A stretch of 63,557 bases of DNA from Candidatus Thermokryptus mobilis. Lineage in GTDB: Bacteria > Bacteroidota > Ignavibacteria > Kryptoniales > Kryptoniaceae. This document shows positions 3,130 through 59,608 of this stretch, piece by piece. The DNA lies in NCBI RefSeq assembly GCF_900070205.1, contig NZ_FAOO01000011.1, forward strand, positions 27,837-91,393. The letters are read 5' to 3'. Position 1 is the stretch's first letter, and each line of letters starts with the position of its first letter. Both the position numbers and the translations under genes were made by a program. Under the pieces are notes generated by a model. That model did not search any database and was not told the origin of the DNA. It saw only the letters and a program-made list of their open reading frames with translations.

Positions 3130-3621
3130 ATGGCGAGGAGTTTAAATAAGGTATTGCTTATAGGGAATCTTGGTGCAGACCCGGAGCTCAGATATACCCC
3201 GAGTGGGGTTCCTGTTGCTACTTTCAGAATCGCAACAAACGAAACTTGGCGCGATGTTGATGGGAACCTTCAGGAGAGGACGGAGTGGCACACGATAGTT
3301 GTGTGGCGGAAATTGGCTGAGTTGTCGGTTGACCTTTTGAAAAAGGGGAGCAAAGTTTATATTGAAGGTCGCCTTCAAACTAGAACCTATGAAGATAAAA
3401 ACGGAATAAGAAGAAGCGTTACCGAGATAGTAGCTGATGATATAATTTTGCTTGAGCCAAGAAGCGTTACCAATGAAACCGCCACACAGCAAAAACCAGC
3501 AATACAAGCAGGTCCACCTGAAGAAATCCCAGAGCCATTTTTGGATGATATAACGAAAACTGAGACACCGCCAGAAGAACCCGGTCAGAAATTGGATGAT
3601 GAAGACGACTTACCATTTTAA
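3130..3621 (+). CDS. ssb: Single-stranded DNA-binding protein
   Basis: Binds and protects single-stranded DNA in replication, repair and recombination, and recruits partners through its tail. The OB-fold covers about residues 1-110, starting [19 protein letters not shown] and including TEWHTIVVW and [15 protein letters not shown] Pro/Glu-rich linker leads to the acidic tip DDEDDLPF, which matches the canonical partner-binding DD(I/L)PF end. At 163 residues it is normal size. The ATG has a purine-rich GAAGGG upstream. Twenty bases separate it from the CorC-like gene. Confidence 0.96.
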
Positions 3622-3640
3622 TAAAATTTTTTAAGAGTTT

Positions 3641-4924
3641 ATGTTTTATGACTTGCTGGTTCTTGTTGTTTTGATTTTTGTCTTGTTGTTTTTATCAGGG
3701 CTTACTTCTGCTTCCGAAGTTGCCTTCTTCTCTTTGCCTGCATCCACTGTGGAAAATTTTTCAAGAAGTGAGTCAAGGTCAAAAAAACTTGTTGCAAAAC
3801 TTCTTGAACAACCACAAAAACTTCTTCTTACGATTTTAATAACAAATAACTTCGTCAATGTCGGTATAGCTCTTGTTGGGACTATAATCGCATTGAGATT
3901 AAGCCAAATTTTTGAAGTTGAGTTAGAATATGCTATCTCGGTGAGTGTAATTTTGATCACTGTTCTTGTGATTGTTTTTGGTGAAATTTTGCCCAAGATA
4001 ATCTCATCAAAAAATTCCGAACTTGTTTCATCTCTCCTTTCTGGGTTTGTAAATATCGCCTCAATAATTTTTTATCCATTCACTGAGTTATTTCTTATTC
4101 TCACGAACGCATTTAAAAAAAGGATTCCAAAGCCAGAATCAAATGTCCTTGTTGAGGAGATAGAACCATTAATTGAACTTGGCGGAAAATACGGCGTGAT
4201 ACATAACGAGGAGAAAAAAATTATAAAAAACCTTCTTCAATTTCCCGAAAAAACGGTCAAAGATGTGATGACATCCAGAGTTGATATGGTTGCGATTGAG
4301 CTCGGGACGGAATTAAATCAGATAATAAAAGTGATCAGGGAGACGGGATTTTCCCGTTTGCCTGTGTATCAGGAGCAAATTGACAATATAATTGGTATTT
4401 TATATGCTAAAGACATCATCCAATTTGTAAGGGATAGAAAAGCGAGGAAAAAATTTGATATAAGAAAAATTCTCCGTGAGCCGATTTTCGTTCCAGAGAC
4501 GATGAGATTGAAAACATTGCTTCAAGAGTTCAAACAAAGGAAAATGCACATAGCGATCGTAGTTGATGAATTTGGCGGGACAGCCGGTCTTGTGACTTTG
4601 CAGGATATAATAACGGAAATTTTCGGTGAGATAGAAAGGGATTTACAAGAGGATAAACTTTTTGAGAAAGTCGGTGAAAATGAATTTGTTTTTGATGGGG
4701 GTTTATCAATAGATGAGGCAAATGAGATACTCGGGACGAACCTTAAAACAACGCAAAGCGATTATGACACTATCGGTGGATTTGTCCTTGAGATAACAGG
4801 GAAAATTCCAAAGGAAAGAGATGTTATAATTTATGAAAACCTTAAATTCACAATTGAGAAGGTTGATAACAGACGGATAAAGAAAATCAGAGTTGAAAAA
4901 TTAAAGGAGCAAAGCGATGTTTAA
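3641..4924 (+). CDS. HlyC/CorC (CNNM) family membrane protein with CBS pair
   Basis: The N-terminal 140 residues hold about four hydrophobic segments of the DUF21/CNNM type, including VIVFGEILPKIISSKNSE. A CBS pair follows (about 200-330), with MTSRVDMVAIE and the conserved IAIVVDEFGGTAGLVTLQDI. The last 90 residues form the CorC_HlyC domain (DYDTIGGFVLEITGKIP). Family members are linked to Mg/Co export, and in Bacteroidota to gliding-related GldE; no gliding genes are nearby, so transport is the safer inference. The 427-residue length is normal. Its last 8 bases overlap the epimerase start. Confidence 0.88.
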   Translation: MFYDLLVLVVLIFVLLFLSGLTSASEVAFFSLPASTVENFSRSESRSKKLVAKLLEQPQKLLLTILITNNFVNVGIALVGTIIALRLSQIFEVELEYAISVSVILITVLVIVFGEILPKIISSKNSELVSSLLSGFVNIASIIFYPFTELFLILTNAFKKRIPKPESNVLVEEIEPLIELGGKYGVIHNEEKKIIKNLLQFPEKTVKDVMTSRVDMVAIELGTELNQIIKVIRETGFSRLPVYQEQIDNIIGILYAKDIIQFVRDRKARKKFDIRKILREPIFVPETMRLKTLLQEFKQRKMHIAIVVDEFGGTAGLVTLQDIITEIFGEIERDLQEDKLFEKVGENEFVFDGGLSIDEANEILGTNLKTTQSDYDTIGGFVLEITGKIPKERDVIIYENLKFTIEKVDNRRIKKIRVEKLKEQSDV

Positions 4925-5339: not shown

Positions 5340-7149
5340 ATTAAAAATACAAAACCTCCCACAGCTCCCTGGCGTTTATCAGTTCAAGGACTCAACAGGG
5401 AAGGTGATTTATGTTGGGAAGGCGAAGAATTTAAGGAACAGGGTTAAAAGTTATTTCATAAAAACGCAACCGACAAATCCCAAAATTAACGCTCTTGTTT
5501 CCAAAATAAGCGATGTTGAAGTTATAGTTACGCAATCCGAGGTTGAAGCTCTGATCCTTGAGGCAAACTTGATTAAAAAGTTAAAGCCAAGATACAATGT
5601 CAGTTTGAGAGATGATAAAAGTTATCCATACATTGTCATAACGAACGAGCCGTTTCCGCGCGTTTTTTCAACGAGGCGGATAAAATCTGATGGCTCAAGA
5701 TACTTTGGTCCATACACAGACGCGTATTCGCTTAAGCAGACATTGAAGTTGATAAGAGATGTTTTCATGGTGAGAAGCTGTAAGTATTACATTGATGATG
5801 AGACCATCACGAAGAAAAAGATAAAAGTTTGCCTTGATTATCACATAAAAAAATGCGGAGGTCCCTGCGAGGGACTTGTTTCAAGAGAAGAGTATAATAA
5901 AATGATTGAGCAAGTAGCCCAACTTTTAAATGGGAAAATTGATGATCTCGTTGGACATTTGAGGGGACAGATGGAGAAATTAGCCCAAGAGCTGAGATTT
6001 GAAGAAGCCGCTGTTTTGAGGGATAAGATAAAAGCACTTGAAATTTACACCTCAAAACAAAGTGTCGTCAGCATTGAGCCAGTTGACAGAGATATCTTTG
6101 CTGTTGCGATTGAGGATGAAGATGCTTGCGGGGTCTTATTCAAAGTTAGAGATGGGAAACTTATAGGGAGTCAGCAATTTTTTATGACTGGGGCTGGATA
6201 TAAAGGTGAAGATGAGGTGATTGAGACGCTGTTGACGCAGTATTACCTTTCGTCTGACTATATCCCAGGGGAGATTTTAATATCGCAAAATATAGAGGAG
6301 GCGGATTCAATTGAAAAATGGCTTGCTGATAGAAAGGGAATGCCAGTTAAGATAAGAACTCCGGAAAATGATGATGAAGCGCGACTTATCTCAATGTGTA
6401 AAGTTAATGCGAAATATCATCTTGATGAGTTTAGAATTCAAAAGATAAAGGCGAGGGGGGAATTTGCTCCTAATGTTTTGAGACAGCTTCAAAAGGAACT
6501 TCGCCTTGATAGATTACCGAGAAGGATTGAGTGTTTTGACATTTCAAACATTCAGGGCTCGGATATAGTTGCTTCTGTAGTTGTGTTTGAAAATGGGAAA
6601 CCGAAGAAAAGCGAGTACAGAAAGTTCAAAATAAGGAGCGTTTCGGACAAGCCGAATGATTTTGCGAGTATGTTTGAGGTGATTCAAAGGAGATATTCAA
6701 GGGTTTTAGGTGAGGGGGGGAAGATGCCAGACCTTATCGTTGTAGATGGTGGGAAGGGGCAACTTTCTTCGGCTATAAAAGCGCTTGAAAACCTTGGGGT
6801 GAAAGAACAACCGATAATCGCTCTGGCGAAGAAATTTGAGGAAATTTATTTCCCCGGGATTGACCAACCGCAATCACTTCCAAAATCATCGCCTGCCCTT
6901 CATTTATTGCAAAGGATAAGGAACGAAGCCCATCGTTTCGCAATCACATTTCACCGGGATATAAGAGCAAAGCGCACATTTTCAACGAAACTTCTTGAAG
7001 TTAAAGGCATAGGTGAGAAAAGAGCTAAAGTTTTACTCTCAAAGTTCGGTTCAATTGAGGGAATAAAGCAAGCACCAATTGAAGAACTTGAAAAAATCCT
7101 CGGTAAGAGCATAGCGAGAAACTTGAAGGAGTTTTTGGAAAAAGAATAA
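5323..7149 (+). CDS. uvrC: UvrABC system protein C (excinuclease)
   Basis: Makes the dual incisions of nucleotide excision repair once UvrAB has marked a lesion. At the N-terminus, LPGVYQFKDSTGKVIYVGKA is the GIY-YIG nuclease (3' incision). A UVR motif lies near residues 215-235 (LAQELRFEEAAVLRDKI). The RNase H-like domain starts around 400 with RIECFDISNIQGSDIVASV and contains IVVDGGKGQL. The C-terminal helix-hairpin-helix pair includes LLEVKGIGEKRAKVLLSKFG. At 608 residues it is full length. The start overlaps the end of mce by 17 bases. Confidence 0.97.
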   Translation: MNPKLELKIQNLPQLPGVYQFKDSTGKVIYVGKAKNLRNRVKSYFIKTQPTNPKINALVSKISDVEVIVTQSEVEALILEANLIKKLKPRYNVSLRDDKSYPYIVITNEPFPRVFSTRRIKSDGSRYFGPYTDAYSLKQTLKLIRDVFMVRSCKYYIDDETITKKKIKVCLDYHIKKCGGPCEGLVSREEYNKMIEQVAQLLNGKIDDLVGHLRGQMEKLAQELRFEEAAVLRDKIKALEIYTSKQSVVSIEPVDRDIFAVAIEDEDACGVLFKVRDGKLIGSQQFFMTGAGYKGEDEVIETLLTQYYLSSDYIPGEILISQNIEEADSIEKWLADRKGMPVKIRTPENDDEARLISMCKVNAKYHLDEFRIQKIKARGEFAPNVLRQLQKELRLDRLPRRIECFDISNIQGSDIVASVVVFENGKPKKSEYRKFKIRSVSDKPNDFASMFEVIQRRYSRVLGEGGKMPDLIVVDGGKGQLSSAIKALENLGVKEQPIIALAKKFEEIYFPGIDQPQSLPKSSPALHLLQRIRNEAHRFAITFHRDIRAKRTFSTKLLEVKGIGEKRAKVLLSKFGSIEGIKQAPIEELEKILGKSIARNLKEFLEKE

Positions 7150-7162
7150 TCGCCAGGGCGAA

Positions 7163-8092
7163 ATGACCGATATACAAAAAAGCATAGTTAAGACGCTGGC
7201 TTATTTTTCAATTTTTAAGCATCCTTTGAGGATAGATGAATTGCATAAATTTCTTTTGTTCAAAGAATGTTCTCTTGATGAGGTTAAAGATGAAGCGGTG
7301 AAACTTAAAGAAAGCAAAAAAATTTTTGAGTTTGATGGATTTTTCCAACTTGAGGATAAAAGGGAATGGGTTGAGGCACGTATTAAAGGTGAGAGGATTG
7401 CATCTTGGTTTTGGGAGGTCGCTAAGTTTATGGCGCATGTTATGAAAAGATTTCCGTTTGTCAGGGGGATTTTCGTTTCGGGAGCTCTTGCGAAGTGGAA
7501 CATATCAATGAGAAGCGACATTGATTTCTTCATCATCACTAAAAGAAGAAGATTATGGATGGCGAGAAGTTTGTTGATAGGTTTTAAAAAGGTTTTTCTC
7601 CTGAACAAAAGGAAATTTTTTTGCTTGAATTATTTCATAAGTGACGACCACCTTGAGATTGAGGATAAAAATATCTTCACAGCCATTGAGATTGCGACAT
7701 TGAAGCCGGTCTTCAACTTAGAATTATATTTTGAATTCATGAGGGCGAACTCATGGGTAAGGAAATTTCTCCCAAATTATTATGTTGATGGGTTCCCCGG
7801 GTCTACCGTTTCCGAGAGGAAGTCGTTTTTTCAAATGTTTTCTGAAAAATTTTTTGAGGGAATTTTTAATAGGGATGGGGATTTGCTTGACAAGTTTGAC
7901 ATTGCTTTAATGAAGAAGTGGGAAAGGATTTGGAAGGTTAGGTATCCGAACCTAACAGATGAGGAGAGGGATTTGATGTTTAGATGCAGACCTTATTTAT
8001 CAAAGGCGCATCCAAATAATTTTCAGAATTTTGTTTTGACGAATTACGATTTGAAGGTTCACTCTATTTTTACCAAATGGGGTGTGAAGTAA
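7163..8092 (+). CDS. Nucleotidyltransferase-fold protein with N-terminal winged-helix-like region, function unknown
   Basis: The first 70 residues look like a winged helix (SIVKTLAYFSIFKHPLRIDEL). Residues of about 100-125 read VSGALAKWNISMRSDIDFFI, which fits the hG(G/S)-x(9-13)-Dh(D/E)h signature of the polymerase-beta nucleotidyltransferase superfamily, with both acidic metal ligands present. The rest is helical and unrecognised. AGGGCG precedes the ATG at 7163. It follows uvrC by 13 bases and overlaps a frame of the next gene only through an upstream start I do not use. Substrate unknown; tRNA, antibiotic or protein nucleotidyl transfer are all possible. Confidence 0.6.
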   Translation: MTDIQKSIVKTLAYFSIFKHPLRIDELHKFLLFKECSLDEVKDEAVKLKESKKIFEFDGFFQLEDKREWVEARIKGERIASWFWEVAKFMAHVMKRFPFVRGIFVSGALAKWNISMRSDIDFFIITKRRRLWMARSLLIGFKKVFLLNKRKFFCLNYFISDDHLEIEDKNIFTAIEIATLKPVFNLELYFEFMRANSWVRKFLPNYYVDGFPGSTVSERKSFFQMFSEKFFEGIFNRDGDLLDKFDIALMKKWERIWKVRYPNLTDEERDLMFRCRPYLSKAHPNNFQNFVLTNYDLKVHSIFTKWGVK

Positions 8093-8178
8093 TTGAGCCA
8101 AAATCTCGGGGAAGTGTTTTTAAATCTCGGTTTAAGTTTTTAAATTTTACCTGTGATTTTAAAACAAAGTTGACGCTG

Positions 8179-8706
8179 ATGATGTTGAAGAAACTTCTCT
8201 TGTCCATTCTTTTGACTCACACATTTTTAATGGCTCAAAGCACATCACAGTTGCTTAATCAGAGGAAGGTCACGGCGTTGGTTTATTCAACTTTCATTCC
8301 TGGGGCTGGGCAATTTTACCTTGGTCACAAGATTAAGGGTATGTTTTTCACATTGGCAACTTTTGGGTCACTTGTAACAACGATTGTTTCCCAAAATAAC
8401 CTCGTCGGCGGAAACGAACGGCTTGAAAATCTTGAGTTGCAGTATTTAAACACGATGAATTGGGAAAGGGCAGATCAACTCTGGCAAGAGATGTTGCAGG
8501 TAAAAGCGGACATTGACAAAGATTACAAACGGCGGAATTTGTTTCTTGGGGTCACTGTAGGTATTTGGGTTATAAATATAATTGATGTTCTTTTTTTCAC
8601 ATCGGATAAAGGTTCGGGTGATATATTCGGGGTGCTCCCGAAGGTTCAAATTTCCGGGGCAAATGAAAGATTTATGATCACAGCAAAATTTGGTCTCTAT
8701 AAATAA
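8179..8706 (+). CDS. Small exported or membrane protein, DUF5683-like
   Basis: I place the start at the ATG pair at 8179/8182, because the protein then begins MMLKKLLLSILLTHTFLMAQ, a good signal peptide. The frame is open back to 8077 but that stretch is not protein-like. After the signal come VYSTFIPGAGQFYLGHKIKG and a hydrophobic segment, matching the small 'P-G-x-G-Q-x-Y' proteins annotated DUF5683 in Bacteroidota. A second membrane segment is GVTVGIWVINIIDVLFF, near residue 140. No enzyme motif is visible. Role unknown. Confidence 0.55.
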   Translation: MMLKKLLLSILLTHTFLMAQSTSQLLNQRKVTALVYSTFIPGAGQFYLGHKIKGMFFTLATFGSLVTTIVSQNNLVGGNERLENLELQYLNTMNWERADQLWQEMLQVKADIDKDYKRRNLFLGVTVGIWVINIIDVLFFTSDKGSGDIFGVLPKVQISGANERFMITAKFGLYK

Positions 8707-12356: not shown

Positions 12357-13139
12357 ATGTTTGATAAAATTTTTCTCCTTCTCTTAATTGCGATGGTTTT
12401 GTCTTTGATATTTACGATACTTGCCTTTACACAGGAGAAGAGGATAAATGTTGGGATTCAAATGATAAAGTTTAAAAGCGGAGATGAAGATATACAGGCT
12501 TTTCTTGCTGTCCCGAAAGCGGAGGGGAAATTCCCTGCGATTGTATTGATACACGAATGGTGGGGCTTGACCGATTGGGAAAAAGAGAACGCTGTTAGAT
12601 TTGCAAGCATGGGATATGTTGCGATTGCGGTTGACCTTTATCGTGGGAAACTTGCAACAACACCAGAGGATGCGAGAAGATATATGCAATCGCTCTCAAA
12701 TGATGTCGTTTTGAGGGATATCAAATCAGCAGTTGATTATCTTAAGTCGCGCGAAGATGTAAAAAAAGATAAGATTGGAATAATTGGTTGGTGTATGGGC
12801 GGTGGATTTGCGCTCAGGAGTTTAATTGAAATTCCGGATTTCTCGGCGGGTGTAATTTGTTATGGACGTCTTGTTGAAGATGAGAAGCAGCTTGAGAGGA
12901 TAAAGTCGCCGGTCCTTGGGATATTCGCGGAAAAAGACAAGGGAATTCCGCCAGATGCTGTTAAAAGCTTTGAGGAGAAAATGAAGAAGCTCGGGAAGAA
13001 AATTGAGGTTAAAATTTACCCAGGCGTAAGTCACGCATTTATGAATCCAAACAATAAAACTGGCTATGACGAAATCTCAACGAAAAGCGCTTGGGATTTG
13101 ATAGATAAGTTCTTCAAAAAATATCTGAAAGCAGATTAA
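12357..13139 (+). CDS. Dienelactone hydrolase-family protein, exported or membrane-anchored
   Basis: An alpha/beta hydrolase whose nucleophile elbow is GWCMGGGFALR, with Cys rather than Ser as in dienelactone hydrolases. The acid is in AEKDKGIPPDA and the His in GVSHAFMNPNNKTGY. LIHEWWGLTDW is the typical oxyanion region. The N-terminus is hydrophobic (LLLLIAMVLSLIFTILAF), giving a signal peptide or anchor, so it likely acts in the periplasm. ATG at 12357 sits after GAGTGAGAG; a GTG at 12348, directly after the kinase stop, is the alternative. The substrate is unknown. It ends 1 base from the convergent decarboxylase. Confidence 0.82.
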   Translation: MFDKIFLLLLIAMVLSLIFTILAFTQEKRINVGIQMIKFKSGDEDIQAFLAVPKAEGKFPAIVLIHEWWGLTDWEKENAVRFASMGYVAIAVDLYRGKLATTPEDARRYMQSLSNDVVLRDIKSAVDYLKSREDVKKDKIGIIGWCMGGGFALRSLIEIPDFSAGVICYGRLVEDEKQLERIKSPVLGIFAEKDKGIPPDAVKSFEEKMKKLGKKIEVKIYPGVSHAFMNPNNKTGYDEISTKSAWDLIDKFFKKYLKAD

Positions 13140-13140
13140 A

Positions 13141-14622
13141 TCAATCGGCGAGAATCTCCTCAATTAACATATCAACATAGTTTAACCTTTCGCTCAAAGT
13201 ATTCCAATGCTTTATAAATACAGACCTTAGCGTGGTAAGTGATTCCTCATCAATTTGAAGCGATGGATTTATTCTTTTCGCCGTTGTTTTATCAACCACG
13301 AATTTTGAAAGTATAAATTTAGCCGAGGGGTTTTCAATTGAAAGTCGGTTATAAATTTTTAGCGTCTTCTCGTTTATTGAACTAAGTTTCAAATTCCCAT
13401 CGTGTTTATAGAAACAGAAAATGTCAAGGTCTGGATGAGTTAAGGGGGAAAAGCCATCAAGTTTTTGAATTTTATCGTGTAGATAATTTGCTGTCTTTAA
13501 GGTTTGTGATAGAATCTTACCAAAGCCGTTTACATTCAGGGGAATAAGTTTGTGGGTAAGCCACACGGCTCCTGCAGATGCCCCGGGTCTTGAACCTTCA
13601 AGTTGAAACATCCCGATGTTTGGTTTATCCTTTTTGTGATATGTGTACGGGGAGGTATTCAAAATAACCTGCCTCAAATTTTCGTCCTTGTAAAGGACCC
13701 CACCAGCCCCATACATGACCAGACCATGCTTGTGTGGGTCAATCGTGATTGAATCCGCTTCTGAAAGAGCGATTAAATTATCATAGACGAACTTTTTTAA
13801 TGTGGGCTCAACTTTAGTGAAGTCAATAATTTGACCGTTTTCATCAATTATCAAGCTTCGCATATATCCACCATAAGCTGCGTCAATGTGAAGATGGAAA
13901 CCGTGCTTCTCTTTGAGCTTTAAAATTTCATTTATCGGGTCAACCGCTCCAACACCTGTTGTCCCAAAATTTGCCATTACAAACATAACGGTATTGTCTT
14001 TCAACGCGTCTTCAAGTTGATTGAGGTCAATCCTATAATTTTCGTCAACATCAATTTCAATGAAATCAACTTTTAAAATTGCGCAAATCCTTTTCCACGA
14101 GTAATGAGAGCCCTTTGAAAACAGCGCTATCCCCTTTTTTCTATAATCTCTCACGGCCCACAAAGCTTCAAGATTTGCAAGTGAGCCACCACTTGTTAAA
14201 TGTCCCCAGCCATTTTTAAAGCCGACAAGTTTCAGCAGGTCATCAACTACTTCCATTTCCATCTCTGTCGTTACAGGTCCACCCTCATAAGCGTGATTGT
14301 TCGGGTTTGTAAGCATTACGGCAAAGTATCCAATAAGAGCTGGGATTGACGGGTCTTTAAGCATTTGAGCTGAATAGCGGGGGTGAAAATAGGGGAGATT
14401 TTTTTCAAGCCGTTTTAAAAATTCCGAAAAGACCTTTTCAAGTTTTTGTGACTCTTCTTTGAATGTTTCTGATTCAAAGAAATCAGCTGGATAAATTGAC
14501 CCATCTTCAAAGAAATTTTCACGCCATTTTTTGTTCCATTCAATCGCCAGATTAATTAGTTTTTTGAAAAGCTCAGTGTTTTCACCCTTCGGACCAAGAA
14601 AGTAAGTGTAAAGTAGTTCCAT
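13141..14622 (-). CDS. PLP-dependent group II amino-acid decarboxylase family protein
   Basis: A fold-type I PLP enzyme of the glutamate/tyrosine/aromatic amino-acid decarboxylase family. ITIDPHKHGLVMYGAGGVLY contains the cofactor Lys (about residue 298). HLHIDAAYGGYM provides the Asp that contacts the pyridine nitrogen, and HLTSGGSLANLEALWA is the phosphate-site region. Length 493 is normal. The substrate cannot be read from sequence. Its ATG follows the stop of the damaged methyltransferase by 12 bases, so it may be transcribed through from that decayed operon. Confidence 0.82.
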   Translation of the reverse strand: MELLYTYFLGPKGENTELFKKLINLAIEWNKKWRENFFEDGSIYPADFFESETFKEESQKLEKVFSEFLKRLEKNLPYFHPRYSAQMLKDPSIPALIGYFAVMLTNPNNHAYEGGPVTTEMEMEVVDDLLKLVGFKNGWGHLTSGGSLANLEALWAVRDYRKKGIALFSKGSHYSWKRICAILKVDFIEIDVDENYRIDLNQLEDALKDNTVMFVMANFGTTGVGAVDPINEILKLKEKHGFHLHIDAAYGGYMRSLIIDENGQIIDFTKVEPTLKKFVYDNLIALSEADSITIDPHKHGLVMYGAGGVLYKDENLRQVILNTSPYTYHKKDKPNIGMFQLEGSRPGASAGAVWLTHKLIPLNVNGFGKILSQTLKTANYLHDKIQKLDGFSPLTHPDLDIFCFYKHDGNLKLSSINEKTLKIYNRLSIENPSAKFILSKFVVDKTTAKRINPSLQIDEESLTTLRSVFIKHWNTLSERLNYVDMLIEEILAD

Positions 14623-14634
14623 AGTTTTGCCCCG

Positions 14635-15522
14635 TTAATGTTTTTTAAGAATTACCGCATATTCATTTTTCATTGTTTCGTCTTTGTTACCCTTTATATT
14701 TGTCGGGGAATTTTGAGAAGGCATTCTCTTATTTGAAATCTCACGGACCAACGTTTTTATATGAGTAAAACCAGAAGTTATAACAAGGTCTATGCTTTCA
14801 TCATCAAGAGAAATACCATCAAGTATATTTCTTCTCTCAAGAATGATTTTTGAATCCGATTTTATTCCTGAGATTTCAAGGATACTTTCTATATTTCGCT
14901 TAGCTATATTTCTAAAAGTTTCCTTGACATTTTTATTTTTACCATCTTTCCTCCTTATGAGTTTAAACTCGTTTGGATCTGCATTTGAGACTTTCCTTAC
15001 CGTTTCAGAAAAAGCAACTTTGAAGAAATCTCGGACACTTTCCTTTTCAATCTTTAAAATTGCTTCCTTTAACTGCGCAAGTTGCTCTATTACATCTTCA
15101 TCAAACCAATAGTGTATATTTGGAAAGTTAGGAATTTCAAAATTTTTGATTTTAGCTGTTAAAATTTTTTTAAGTGTATTTGTGAGCTCTTCTATATCTT
15201 GTGGTGTAGTCCTAACTTTTGCTATAAGTATTGCGAGCGGATTAATATCGTATCCTATAAAATTTCTGTTAAGTTTGAGACATTCTCCGGCAGAAACACC
15301 AGAACCACAAAACGGATCAAAAACAAGGTCAAATTCCTTTGAGAACTCCTTTATAAATTTCCTTACTAACATAAAGTGAAACATTGCAGGATACGGGTGG
15401 ATGGCATATATCCCTTGACCTGCTTGAATGCCTTTGAAATCAAGTGATTCATCTCTTTGACGCTTGAATTTTGTTGACTCACTTTTTCTTTTTTCTTCAT
15501 AAAACAAGCTCAATTGCCTCAT
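14635..15522 (-). pseudogene. DNA methyltransferase with internal in-frame deletion of the catalytic region
   Basis: The N-terminal half is a good N4-cytosine/N6-adenine methyltransferase: IHPYPAMFHF, then SAM-binding motif I DPFCGSG (about residues 69-75) and FIGYDINPLAILIA. At residues 246-250 it reads DLVITS, where PPY should follow. Instead it jumps to GFTHIKTLVREIS and then SNKRMPSQNSPTNIKG...EYAVILKK, which looks like the normal C-terminal hairpin of such enzymes. The join is near base 14772. Roughly 100 residues including PPY appear lost while the frame is kept. At 295 residues it is shorter than expected and should be catalytically dead. A truncated endonuclease ends 1 base upstream. 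Confidence 0.65.
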
Positions 15523-15523
15523 G

Positions 15524-15823
15524 TCATATCTTCACCTCCTTCGGCAGATCTGATAGTTTTCTTACCCAATCATTGTCTTTGAATCTCTTTTTAATTTCAT
15601 CTCTGACAAAAACTATGAGCCCTCTTTCCATTATTTCCTTCACCTTATTTTCTGAAAGTTCTTCATCTATTGTAATAAGATATATTCTTTGATTTGGTCC
15701 AGCAGAGGGAACTTCTTGTTTCCACATAAACTCTTTTTTGAAGTTAAGTTTCTGCCATGTTGCATTTATAATTTCATCAACGGATGGTATCTCTCTTTTG
15801 ACTTGTTCTATAGGATTATTCAT
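15524..15823 (-). pseudogene. Truncated Type II restriction endonuclease, C-terminal part
   Basis: A 99-residue frame. From about residue 32 it reads KQEVPSAGPNQRIYLITIDE, then ELSENKVKEIMERGLIVFV, and ends WVRKLSDLPKEVKI. The IYLIT-(D/E)-x-x-(I/L)-S-x-x-K pattern recurs at the C-terminal ends of several Type II endonucleases. No PD or E-x-K catalytic residues remain. The short N-terminus may be native N-terminus or new sequence. One base separates its TGA from the ATG of the deleted methyltransferase, so this was probably an R-M operon. The family call is moderate; it could be a small protein of unknown function. Confidence 0.45.
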
Positions 15824-15911
15824 TTTATGGGAAATATTTTATGGAAATCTTACTGAAAATATACAAATTTTCGGTGAAATTAATTATCTTTCTGAAAAAA
15901 GGTTGAAGGCG

Positions 15912-18047
15912 ATGCGAAGGATAACATCATTTTTGGTTTTGCTTATATTTGTGTTTGAGTTTTTGTTTTCACAAGTGAAATTTGATTCAATTTCTGCTTG
16001 GAATTTCAACAAGGTTCTGACATCGGAAAAATTTCAAGGGCGTAAATCGGGGACACCAGGAGGAGAATTAGCAAGTCAATGGATAGCGGAAAAATTTAGG
16101 GAGTTTGGGCTTAAACCTTTTGGTGATGGTGGAAGTTATTTTCAAAATTTTAAAATTTTGGCAACACAAGATAAAATCACCAAGTTAACACTTTTGAACG
16201 GCAGAAAAGGGAAAGTTAAATATTCACTTGGTGATGACTTCACGATCATGACAAATAGCGGAAGCGGTAAAGTCAAAGCAAATGTTGTTTTCGTCGGTTA
16301 TGGTATTTCAGCCCCTGAAAAGGGTAGGGATGACTATGAAGGTGTTGATGTCAGAGGCAAGATTGTTCTTTTGCTCGCGGGAACACCAAGTGATGGAGAG
16401 GGGAAATTTGAAGTTGAAGGATCAAGGGGATACAAAGTTAGAAAGGCATATGAGAAGGGGGCATCCGCAGTTTTTTATGTCCAAGGAGATAGACCAATAC
16501 GAGGTGGAACAATAACCCAGGAATATTATACTCCTGAAATTCCAGCTCTTTGGATCGGAAGAAAAGTAATTGACGATATTTTCTATGACACTGGGATAAG
16601 CTTTGACGCCTTGAGAAGCGAGGTTAATTTTAAAGTTAAATCGTTTGAGATTGGGAAAATTTTTGAAGTTGAAACAAAGGTTGAACGACTTGAGGGTTGG
16701 ACTAAAAATGTCGTCGGCTTACTTCCTGGCTCTGATGAAAATTTAAAAGATGAATACATAGTTGTTGGGGCTCATATGGATCATAACGGTGTTGATGCAG
16801 AGGGGTTTATATATCCCGGAGCTGACGACAATGGTTCTGGGACTTGTCTTGTTATGGAACTTGCAAGAAGTATGATTGCAAACGGTGAAAGACCGAAAAG
16901 GTCAATAATTTTTGTGCTTTTTGCTGCCGAGGAACAAGGGCTTTTGGGCTCCAAGCATTTCGTATCAAACTTACCTGTTCCAGAGGAAAATATAGTTGCG
17001 ATGTTTAATTTTGATATGGTTGGAAGAGGCAACGGGAATATAAATATTGCCGGGACAGAAAATTTCCCTGAAATGTGGGACATAGTTAAAAACTTTTTTC
17101 CAGCTGAAAAGTTGAAAAATCTTGGGAAGTTTCGCGCTGGTGCAAACTCCGACCATTATCCATTTCAAGAGCGAGGAATCCCTGCTTTCTTCTTTATCTC
17201 GGCTGGGCAACATCCCGAATATCACAGAACCGATGACAAGAGCGATAAAATTCAACCCTTCGTCCTTGGCGAGGTTGGAAACACGGCGTATGATGTCATA
17301 CTTGGTCTGGCAAATTATCCGAAGAGCTTGAAGGGGAAAGATAGGTATCAAAGATATCTTTATGCTAATGCAAGGACGGTGGTTTACACTACGATTGATT
17401 CTTCAAGTTTAAGCGAAATTAACAATTTAAGGTCAAAGCTTAAAGGAAGTGATGTTGATGGGGTCATATTTGAAATTAAGGGTGATGACCTTGCCAGCGT
17501 TGTAAGAGTGATTAGTTTTTTTGATTCCGTCGCAAGTCGTGATTATAAGAATTTTAACATCGTTACGGATAAATCAAAGTTTTCAACTTCGCCGGGTGTT
17601 TTGAATATAATTTTTTCTGCCGATGCTAAAGTTTTTAAAGAAAACCCTCAGGTTTTGAGAGTTCTTTCAAAGGCGGGATTGAAGTTTGTAGTTTTCAGTG
17701 AGGAAATTTCTTTGTCAAAAATTCAAAGTGTGGTTGATGTTGTGAACGATTTTTATCTTGATGTTTATCCGATCGTGAAGGGAGTTGAATTCGCAGGGTT
17801 TAATTTCAAAAAGCCAGGGCTTATTTTTGATCAGATTGATCTTTCATCTGACGGGGGAAATATACTTGTTTTCACGGATGCTGATAAGTTTCTTGAGAGG
17901 ATTGACTCTGTAAAAATTGATAATGTTTTTCTAAATTTGGAACCGGATAAAGCTGTGAGTTTGATTGCTGATCTTCAGAAGGAGAAATGGGATGTGAAGT
18001 CAATTCAAAAAATTTTTGGTCAAAATCTTTATCGTTTTTTGAAATGA
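15912..18047 (+). CDS. Secreted M28 metallopeptidase with long unrecognised C-terminal region
   Basis: I start at ATG 15912, which follows GAAGGCG and gives a signal peptide (RRITSFLVLLIFVFEFLF); the frame is open further upstream but would overlap the endonuclease remnant. A PA domain (about 120-265) is inserted before the peptidase core. Zinc ligands are visible in GAHMDHNG, GADDNGSGT, FAAEEQGLLGS, FDMVGRGNG and HPEYHRTDD. It is therefore likely an active co-catalytic di-zinc aminopeptidase outside the cytoplasm. After about residue 475 comes some 235 residues starting YLYANARTVVYTTIDSSSL that is not part of the usual M28 unit. A terminator follows the stop. Confidence 0.85.
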   Translation: MRRITSFLVLLIFVFEFLFSQVKFDSISAWNFNKVLTSEKFQGRKSGTPGGELASQWIAEKFREFGLKPFGDGGSYFQNFKILATQDKITKLTLLNGRKGKVKYSLGDDFTIMTNSGSGKVKANVVFVGYGISAPEKGRDDYEGVDVRGKIVLLLAGTPSDGEGKFEVEGSRGYKVRKAYEKGASAVFYVQGDRPIRGGTITQEYYTPEIPALWIGRKVIDDIFYDTGISFDALRSEVNFKVKSFEIGKIFEVETKVERLEGWTKNVVGLLPGSDENLKDEYIVVGAHMDHNGVDAEGFIYPGADDNGSGTCLVMELARSMIANGERPKRSIIFVLFAAEEQGLLGSKHFVSNLPVPEENIVAMFNFDMVGRGNGNINIAGTENFPEMWDIVKNFFPAEKLKNLGKFRAGANSDHYPFQERGIPAFFFISAGQHPEYHRTDDKSDKIQPFVLGEVGNTAYDVILGLANYPKSLKGKDRYQRYLYANARTVVYTTIDSSSLSEINNLRSKLKGSDVDGVIFEIKGDDLASVVRVISFFDSVASRDYKNFNIVTDKSKFSTSPGVLNIIFSADAKVFKENPQVLRVLSKAGLKFVVFSEEISLSKIQSVVDVVNDFYLDVYPIVKGVEFAGFNFKKPGLIFDQIDLSSDGGNILVFTDADKFLERIDSVKIDNVFLNLEPDKAVSLIADLQKEKWDVKSIQKIFGQNLYRFLK

Positions 18048-58426: not shown

Positions 58427-59608
58427 CTATTTTTTAGACAACCATACTTCGGGGTTTTGTTGTTGTCTTTCATGCCAGATTTCAAAATGAACTATTGAGC
58501 CCTCAATGGACTCACCGCTTTTACCTATGATTTGACCAGCATTTACTTTTTCACCTTCGCTTACAAATATATCTGAAAGGTTTGCATAGACGGTTCTGAA
58601 ACCGCCATCATGTGTTATGATTATCAAATTTTCAAAGCTTGGCAACCAAAAAATTTTTGATACAACTCCATCCGCAACAGCTCGCACCTCGGTTTCACCT
58701 TTAACTTGGATATCAACACCGTAGTTTAATGTCACTGTCTTTAAAACGGGATGAACTTGCTCACCATATCTTGCGACGATTTTTCCGTTGTCAACAGGCC
58801 AGGGGAGTTTTCCTTTGAGTTTTGCGAATGCGCTCTCAACTTTTGGAGTTTCAACTTTTTTCCTTTTCTTAATCTCCTCTCTTCGTTTTCTTTCCTTTTC
58901 CTCCTCAATCAACTTTGCAATCACATTTTCAATCTCCTTTATTGCCCTTTTTCTCCTCTCAATTTGTGCCTGTAGTTTCTGCTTGTCCTTCCTTATCTTT
59001 TCAAGAAGTTCTTTCTTTTCTTTTATTCCGTTTAAGAGGTTTTTCTCCTCTTCCTCTTTTTGTGATATTAATTCCCTTTGCTTTGAAAGGGCAAGCTCAA
59101 GCTCGCCCTTTTGCTTTTTTAAATTTTCTTGTTTTGATAAGATTGAATCAATTATGGCTTTCCCAAACTTTGAAAATTTCTTGAGATATACCGTCCTTAT
59201 CAACATTTGATTTAAAGACCTCGCCGATAAAATGAGTTCAAAGTCGTGTGTTCTCCCACGCTTATATGTCGACCTGATATAAGATGCATATTTCTCTTTC
59301 AAATTTTTGATCTCTTGTTCAGACCTTAAAATCTCGTCTTGCAATTTTTTTATTTCTTTCTCGTTCTCGTTTGCCTGCTTTTTGAGTTCCGATATCAACT
59401 TCCTTAAGAGATTATCCCTTCTCTCGTAGTCATCAATTAAGTCAAGTGTGAACTTTTCCTTTTGTTGTGCCTCTTTTATCTTCATCTCGTATAAATTTAT
59501 TTCCTCCTTGAGGCGTTTCAACTCCTCCTGTTTTTTCTTCACCGCATTTTGCGATAAAACCTCAAGCGTTAGTGTTAGAATCAAAATCAAAGCCCAAATT
59601 CTTTCCAT
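58427..59608 (-). CDS. EnvC-like coiled-coil protein with degenerate LytM (M23) domain
   Basis: A signal peptide (ALILILTLTLEVLSQNAV) is followed by a coiled coil of about 240 residues, then a LytM fold from about 270. The three zinc-ligand positions look altered: NYGVDI where HSGxDI is usual, TVYANL where TxYxHL is expected, and SIVHFEI with only one His of HLH. This is the pattern of EnvC-type amidase activators, which recruit and switch on amidases rather than cut peptidoglycan. Length 393. Its start overlaps ubiD by 22 bases. Confidence 0.85.
   Translation of the reverse strand: MERIWALILILTLTLEVLSQNAVKKKQEELKRLKEEINLYEMKIKEAQQKEKFTLDLIDDYERRDNLLRKLISELKKQANENEKEIKKLQDEILRSEQEIKNLKEKYASYIRSTYKRGRTHDFELILSARSLNQMLIRTVYLKKFSKFGKAIIDSILSKQENLKKQKGELELALSKQRELISQKEEEEKNLLNGIKEKKELLEKIRKDKQKLQAQIERRKRAIKEIENVIAKLIEEEKERKRREEIKKRKKVETPKVESAFAKLKGKLPWPVDNGKIVARYGEQVHPVLKTVTLNYGVDIQVKGETEVRAVADGVVSKIFWLPSFENLIIITHDGGFRTVYANLSDIFVSEGEKVNAGQIIGKSGESIEGSIVHFEIWHERQQQNPEVWLSKK

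Follow-up and report, generated by a model that had tools for sequence, protein, structure and literature searches.

Results

Two shortened genes between a decarboxylase and a peptidase gene

The DNA analysed here (the window) is a 63,557-nt stretch of Candidatus Thermokryptus mobilis, a hot-spring, Kryptonium-like thermophile, and lies within contig C11 of the source genome (G000). On its reverse strand, positions 14635..15522 hold a 295-residue open reading frame with zero internal stops, the remnant of a methyltransferase gene (M) that, by comparison with homologues, is short of 119 residues, beginning with motif IV (PPY). Directly upstream, ending one base ahead of the M start, lies a gene whose damage the original prediction overlooked: a restriction endonuclease remnant (R) of 99 residues (15524..15823, reverse strand), in which the first 33 residues are fused to the C-terminal part and ~150 codons are missing in frame. 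The pair sits between two host genes. Downstream, starting 12 bases past the M stop codon, is the gene for a PLP-dependent decarboxylase-like protein of 493 aa (PF00282; 13141..14622, reverse strand); R, M and this gene share one strand and are separated by 1 and 12 bases. On the other flank of the insertion site, a divergent M28-family peptidase gene (PF04389) occupies 15909..18047 of the forward strand. No RNA family reached its gathering score at 12900-16300.

The methyltransferase remnant lacks its catalytic motif

Within M, DLVITS (residues 245-250) is followed immediately by GFTHIKTLVREIS: the codon of S250 ends at position 14773, ITS abuts GFTHIK at 14773/14772, and the junction reads TCT (S250) / GGT (G251) on the reverse strand (14772..14773). 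Across 11 full-length homologues (L055 and the split L059 were left out), the spacing from TS to G[FY].H is 119 residues in nine and 121 in two, a segment that opens with PPY; the gap in M therefore most likely spans 357 bp without a change of frame. Relative to three same-genus homologues, which are open frames of 429-436 aa with 55-57% identity across the aligned N-terminal part, the absent segment extends from PPYGDS up to the residue preceding GFxH (119 residues), and the deletion takes out motif IV plus everything until the C-terminal hairpin. The alignment thus bears out the original prediction of a frame-preserving loss of the PPY region, both in the position of the gene and at the DLVITS junction. 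Equally sound was its view that the SAM-binding N-terminal half and the C-terminal hairpin are present: motif I, DPFCGSG (consensus DPFxGSG), stands at residues 69-75 and the hairpin is retained. The 295-residue architecture occurs in none of the 14 related loci recovered by a scan of genome contigs.

Motif IV is the name given to the S/D/N-PP-Y/F motif; it reads TSPPY in 11/11 full-length homologues, and only TSG is left of it in M. N4-cytosine methylation by the intact enzymes is our assumption from the SPPY type only. Profile PF01555 scores M at 58.4 bits (cut-off 26.7) over residues 10-101 only, and the best PADLOC model is PDLC03322 (8e-60, residues 20-250). An orphan methyltransferase would pair a complete catalytic domain with the lack of a working endonuclease, and M, without motif IV, is not of this kind. 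Matching plasmid records (46) and phage records (22) are all below 60% identity, and 8 of the best 10 plasmid and 3 of the best 10 phage matches end at query residue 250. Neither of the two junction sequences, searched as exact patterns in IMG/VR, hit any stretch, and a close undeleted copy of M was not found among the sequences searched. With G001-G003 or Caldimicrobium as stand-ins, merely 56-64% alike, no microhomology longer than 1-2 bp was seen at the M junction.

The missing parts were also sought elsewhere in the organism's own genome. The eight matches to the methyltransferase of Candidatus Chrysopegis kryptomonas (G002) comprised the two window flanks, a 424-aa methyltransferase on contig C33 (28%) and five partial N-terminal matches; the G002 endonuclease matched only the C-terminal part of R.

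The endonuclease lost its middle between short direct repeats

An intact methyltransferase of G002 is preceded by a 252-aa protein, whose end residues 34-97 of R match at 74% identity over 65 columns; the N-terminal 33 residues of R are similar to the beginning of this protein and of its congener homologues. The N-terminal match was read from the sequences, MAFFT having placed these 33 residues elsewhere, and is confirmed by the Calescibacterium copy described below. Among known endonucleases, the 252-aa protein has matches to EcoRII-C (39.7 bits, cut-off 25), R.Ecl18kI (3.3e-09) and PspGI (4.4e-09), and the EcoRII-C profile scores R at 19.9 bits, below the Pfam cut-off of 25. According to passages of PMC6344858, CCGG-family endonucleases have R-(D/E)R as their recognition motif, and their active site is the permuted PD...K...D/E. 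The endonucleases of G001-G003 have RERW at this place, and R picks up again at the W; it is therefore without the recognition motif and what precedes it.

Near-identical undeleted pieces come from an assembly named Calescibacterium nevadense (G061). One contig end there, beside a gene that we take to be recA, holds 107 stop-free codons of the same endonuclease (one codon ambiguous), of which the first 99 bases are identical to the first 33 codons of R at 96/99 positions. Another contig of the assembly (L053, AWOA01000030.1) carries the right flank and extends into the first ~120 methyltransferase codons; of the 560 bases compared, 6 are N, and the remaining 554 match the window at 548. The two flanks read GTG-TGGAAA-AAATTT (left) and AGA-TGGAAA-CAAGAA (right), and the window has ATG-TGGAAA-CAAGAA, so that a 6-bp direct repeat, TGGAAA (15719..15724, reverse strand), flanks the deleted stretch in the same frame at both ends. 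Random breakpoints gave a repeat of at least 6 bp in 0.6% of 200,000 pairs. Because the two repeats share a frame, an in-frame R deletion needs no selection.

L053, the right-hand template for this junction, is probably a composite contig, to judge from its parts: positions 3310-4909 resemble Bacterium HR19 (70%), 6422-8471 are 93% identical to contig C1 of the source genome, and its endonuclease has two stops. Pieces of Calescibacterium nevadense OTU 1 (L053 5799-8471 and L089 4610-4931) are 93-99% identical to the source genome, which points either to DNA that recently crossed between phyla or to a single-cell assembly of mixed content. Elsewhere in the Calescibacterium family, G062 and G067 match the near-identical block at 68-69% only, and G066 and G068 gave no match to it.

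Conservation and predicted structure of the methyltransferase remnant

M keeps 81/81 positions that are invariant across the 11 homologues, and in a leave-one-out control these homologues themselves lose 0 to 6 invariant positions; by this comparison, M bears no sign of long neglect. This conservation and the near-identical Calescibacterium pieces make the inactivation of M look recent, a pattern that constraint would produce as well.

AlphaFold2 predicted M (13 rows) with a mean pLDDT of 61.9 and a pTM of 0.59. Residues 1-54, 185-190, 233-252 and 256-295 fall below 50, placing the surroundings of motifs X and I and the C-terminal part at low confidence, and the middle domain (blocks ~101 to 180) lies mostly at 77-95. 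The full-length Caldimicrobium homologue (12 rows) reached a mean pLDDT of 80.0 and a pTM of 0.82, and at E <= 0.001 Foldseek returned 182 PDB matches for it and none for M, a comparison of two different proteins from shallow alignments (12-13 sequences) that carries moderate weight only. The best 50 of the 182 matches were tRNA, rRNA, small-molecule and Dam methyltransferases plus one bifunctional enzyme, with no informative close relative among them. The predicted models suggest that the M product probably forms no proper methyltransferase core, and we take it to be non-functional. The original prediction had wavered between a dead gene and a regulator or decoy. The first is the better supported, given that R is deleted too, that the model is of low confidence and that endonucleases are broken in 5/14 related loci; nothing was found to favour the second.

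A probable shared insertion site, distinct methyltransferase lineages

The decarboxylase and M28-peptidase genes of G001, G003 and G005 adjoin directly and divergently, with no R or M match between them; G001 and G003 carry an R/M pair at other places. G004 has the peptidase gene and R at one contig end and M and the decarboxylase gene at another, which suggests the same arrangement as in the window across a contig gap. Both of these contigs (C10 and C11) terminate within the same restriction-modification operon (L031 13356-13662; L088 1-575), as if the population varied here or the region were hard to assemble. The pair of G002 likewise lies ahead of the decarboxylase gene, with the peptidase gene on another contig, and is flanked by two copies (116/118 identical) of that gene's first ~118 bp, at approximately L029 6646-6763 and 8820-8937. 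The arrangement looks as if an insertion or rearrangement had duplicated a long target, and it resembles the long target duplications that, alongside rearrangements, are reported for restriction-modification systems in parts of PMC3031569.

In a tree of 295 retained columns and 12 rows, M groups with the Caldimicrobium homologue (support 100/98). The data reject both a clade uniting M and the three Kryptonium copies (p-AU 0.0019) and one uniting M and G002 (p-AU 0.0052), and a single ancestral insertion with vertical descent is accordingly not favoured. Between G001 and G003, M is 84.7% identical and the decarboxylase 90%; between the window and G002 the values are 59.7% and 84%. Despite the M tree, the same site is occupied in the window, in G004 (by our reading across the contig gap) and in G002 (decarboxylase side), and the simplest reading of these sequences would be independent arrival, or replacement, at one site. 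CCWGG occurs 39 times in the window (about 74 expected under a Markov model) and CCSGG 73 times (about 50 expected); the CCWGG deficit fits, weakly, past cutting at CCWGG.

Endonuclease loss in related loci

Both genes are open in 7 of the 14 related loci (L047, L048, L049, L054, L055, L056 and L058), and in five (L046, L050, L051, L052 and L057) a broken R stands beside a full-length M that, by its sequence, fits an orphan (solitary) methyltransferase. R has a frameshift in L046, is reduced to its ends in L050 and L057, and shows internal losses with frame changes in L051 and L052. Of the remaining two loci, L059 has M split into two frames and L053 has both genes damaged. Single frameshifts here may be errors, since some of these loci are low-coverage metagenome contigs. 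Stepwise loss of restriction-modification systems is described in parts of PMC6471742 as starting with the endonuclease, and a broken R beside an intact M is the first step of decay expected from that account.

Avoided sites and a second restriction remnant

As a separate observation, TCGA is nearly eliminated from the window, with one site (at 59269) against 199 expected from trinucleotides, and ten more stretches of the source genome (L095-L104, 189 kb) hold 14 against 553. Observed over expected counts are 2/139 in G002, 10/134 in G004, 2/86 in G005, 175/234 in G001 and 141/188 in G003. A TaqI-type endonuclease (RE_TaqI) was found in G002, in G004 and, as a fragment, in the source genome, and was not found in G001, G003, G005 or G006; the near-elimination of TCGA thus partly tracks a TaqI-like enzyme, G005 being the exception. 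The fragment (L117 1501-1818, C13:52181-52420 of the source genome; a 105-aa ORF covering profile positions 109-198 of 229) is the second restriction enzyme remnant of this genome. The small contig C33 (L104) bears the distant 424-aa methyltransferase (28%) and 4 of the 14 TCGA sites, on which grounds it may be recently acquired DNA. GGCC (5 seen, 78 expected) and ACGT (15 seen, 103 expected) are scarce in the window as well, and a HaeIII-type endonuclease (PF09556) was present in 0/6 Kryptonium genomes searched. The scarcity of TCGA may merit more attention than the methyltransferase finding.

Discussion

Adjacent R and M homologues, each missing essential parts, are what a decayed system would leave behind, and we consider the locus what remains of a type II restriction-modification pair that was acquired horizontally (probability roughly 0.85). 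The acquired pair would have consisted of a CCGG-family endonuclease (of the Ecl18kI/PspGI/EcoRII-C kind) and an SPPY-type amino-methyltransferase, and would have entered between the peptidase and PLP-decarboxylase genes. R has lost ~150 codons between the TGGAAA repeats and was probably inactivated first, because a cell with a working endonuclease and no methylation would come to harm. M, unneeded once R had gone, would have been deleted later and recently. Judging by the missing motifs, neither product is likely to retain its original activity, and the pair as a whole probably has none. A counterpoint to decay is that both remnants are fully open and that M keeps all its invariant residues, as retained function would also give.

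Among the alternatives, the one that fares best, though we think it improbable, is that the frame itself was selected: the remnants would form a translated leader of the decarboxylase gene, where out-of-frame deletions would yield untranslated RNA and lower expression. The close spacing of the three genes on one strand would suit such a leader, and in G004 the stretch upstream of R resembles, by eye, the decarboxylase upstream stretch of the empty-site congeners. However, the repeats by themselves keep the R deletion in frame, which leaves M as the single in-frame event to account for, one that chance would give in a third of cases, and the R genes of relatives often carry out-of-frame breaks (L046, L051, L052 and L057). 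Slightly harder to credit is that selection favoured the in-frame shrinkage of both proteins, which would then be maintained as a mini-pair or as a translated leader module, serving for example decarboxylase expression or SAM sensing via motif I. We regard as less plausible again that the shortened M, with or without the 99-aa protein, was kept as a non-catalytic regulator or decoy, binding SAM via motif I or DNA via the middle domain: the deletion of its partner gene, the absence of the shortened form from all 14 related loci and the low confidence of the model around motif X/I and at the C-terminus speak against such a role, and recency accounts for the conservation (81/81 positions, in an open frame with motif I intact) that would otherwise commend it along with the confidently predicted middle domain. 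Loss of the R and M segments during assembly is the least likely explanation, and an assembly collapse looks unlikely: although this is a draft genome of 35 contigs and the G004 contig ends hint at a variable or poorly assembling region, the assembler would have had to make two separate joins, both keeping frame, the missing pieces are on no other contig, and a 6-bp repeat is far shorter than the words used by assemblers.

The preferred reading, a decayed restriction-modification pair, makes the window a well-resolved case of such a mobile pair dying, with a known insertion site and the rest of both genes nearly intact. It also carries a warning for annotation, as the 295-aa protein should not be labelled an active DNA methyltransferase.

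Comparison with known systems

The intact congener endonuclease is like Ecl18kI, PspGI and EcoRII-C (CCGG family, PF09019) in its sequence match and its R-E-R(W) motif; R keeps the C-terminal part of such enzymes, whereas the recognition motif and the core are absent. With the methyltransferases of PF01555 and PADLOC PDLC03322 (PspGI-methylase-like), M shares motif I and the order of parts, but it is without motif IV and the following 119 residues; one relative, STSV1, is annotated 'similar to PspGI methylase'. Decaying systems with solitary methyltransferases beside degraded endonuclease genes, and with a patchy, horizontal distribution, are described in parts of PMC6471742, which cites Seshasayee et al. 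The pair in the window is like the systems covered there in its probable stepwise loss, starting with the endonuclease, and in its patchy horizontal spread, and unlike them in that M is inactivated too and that both losses are in-frame internal deletions. Decay of this kind is ordinary, and the novelty lies in how well the site, the partner, the repeat and the likely recency are resolved.
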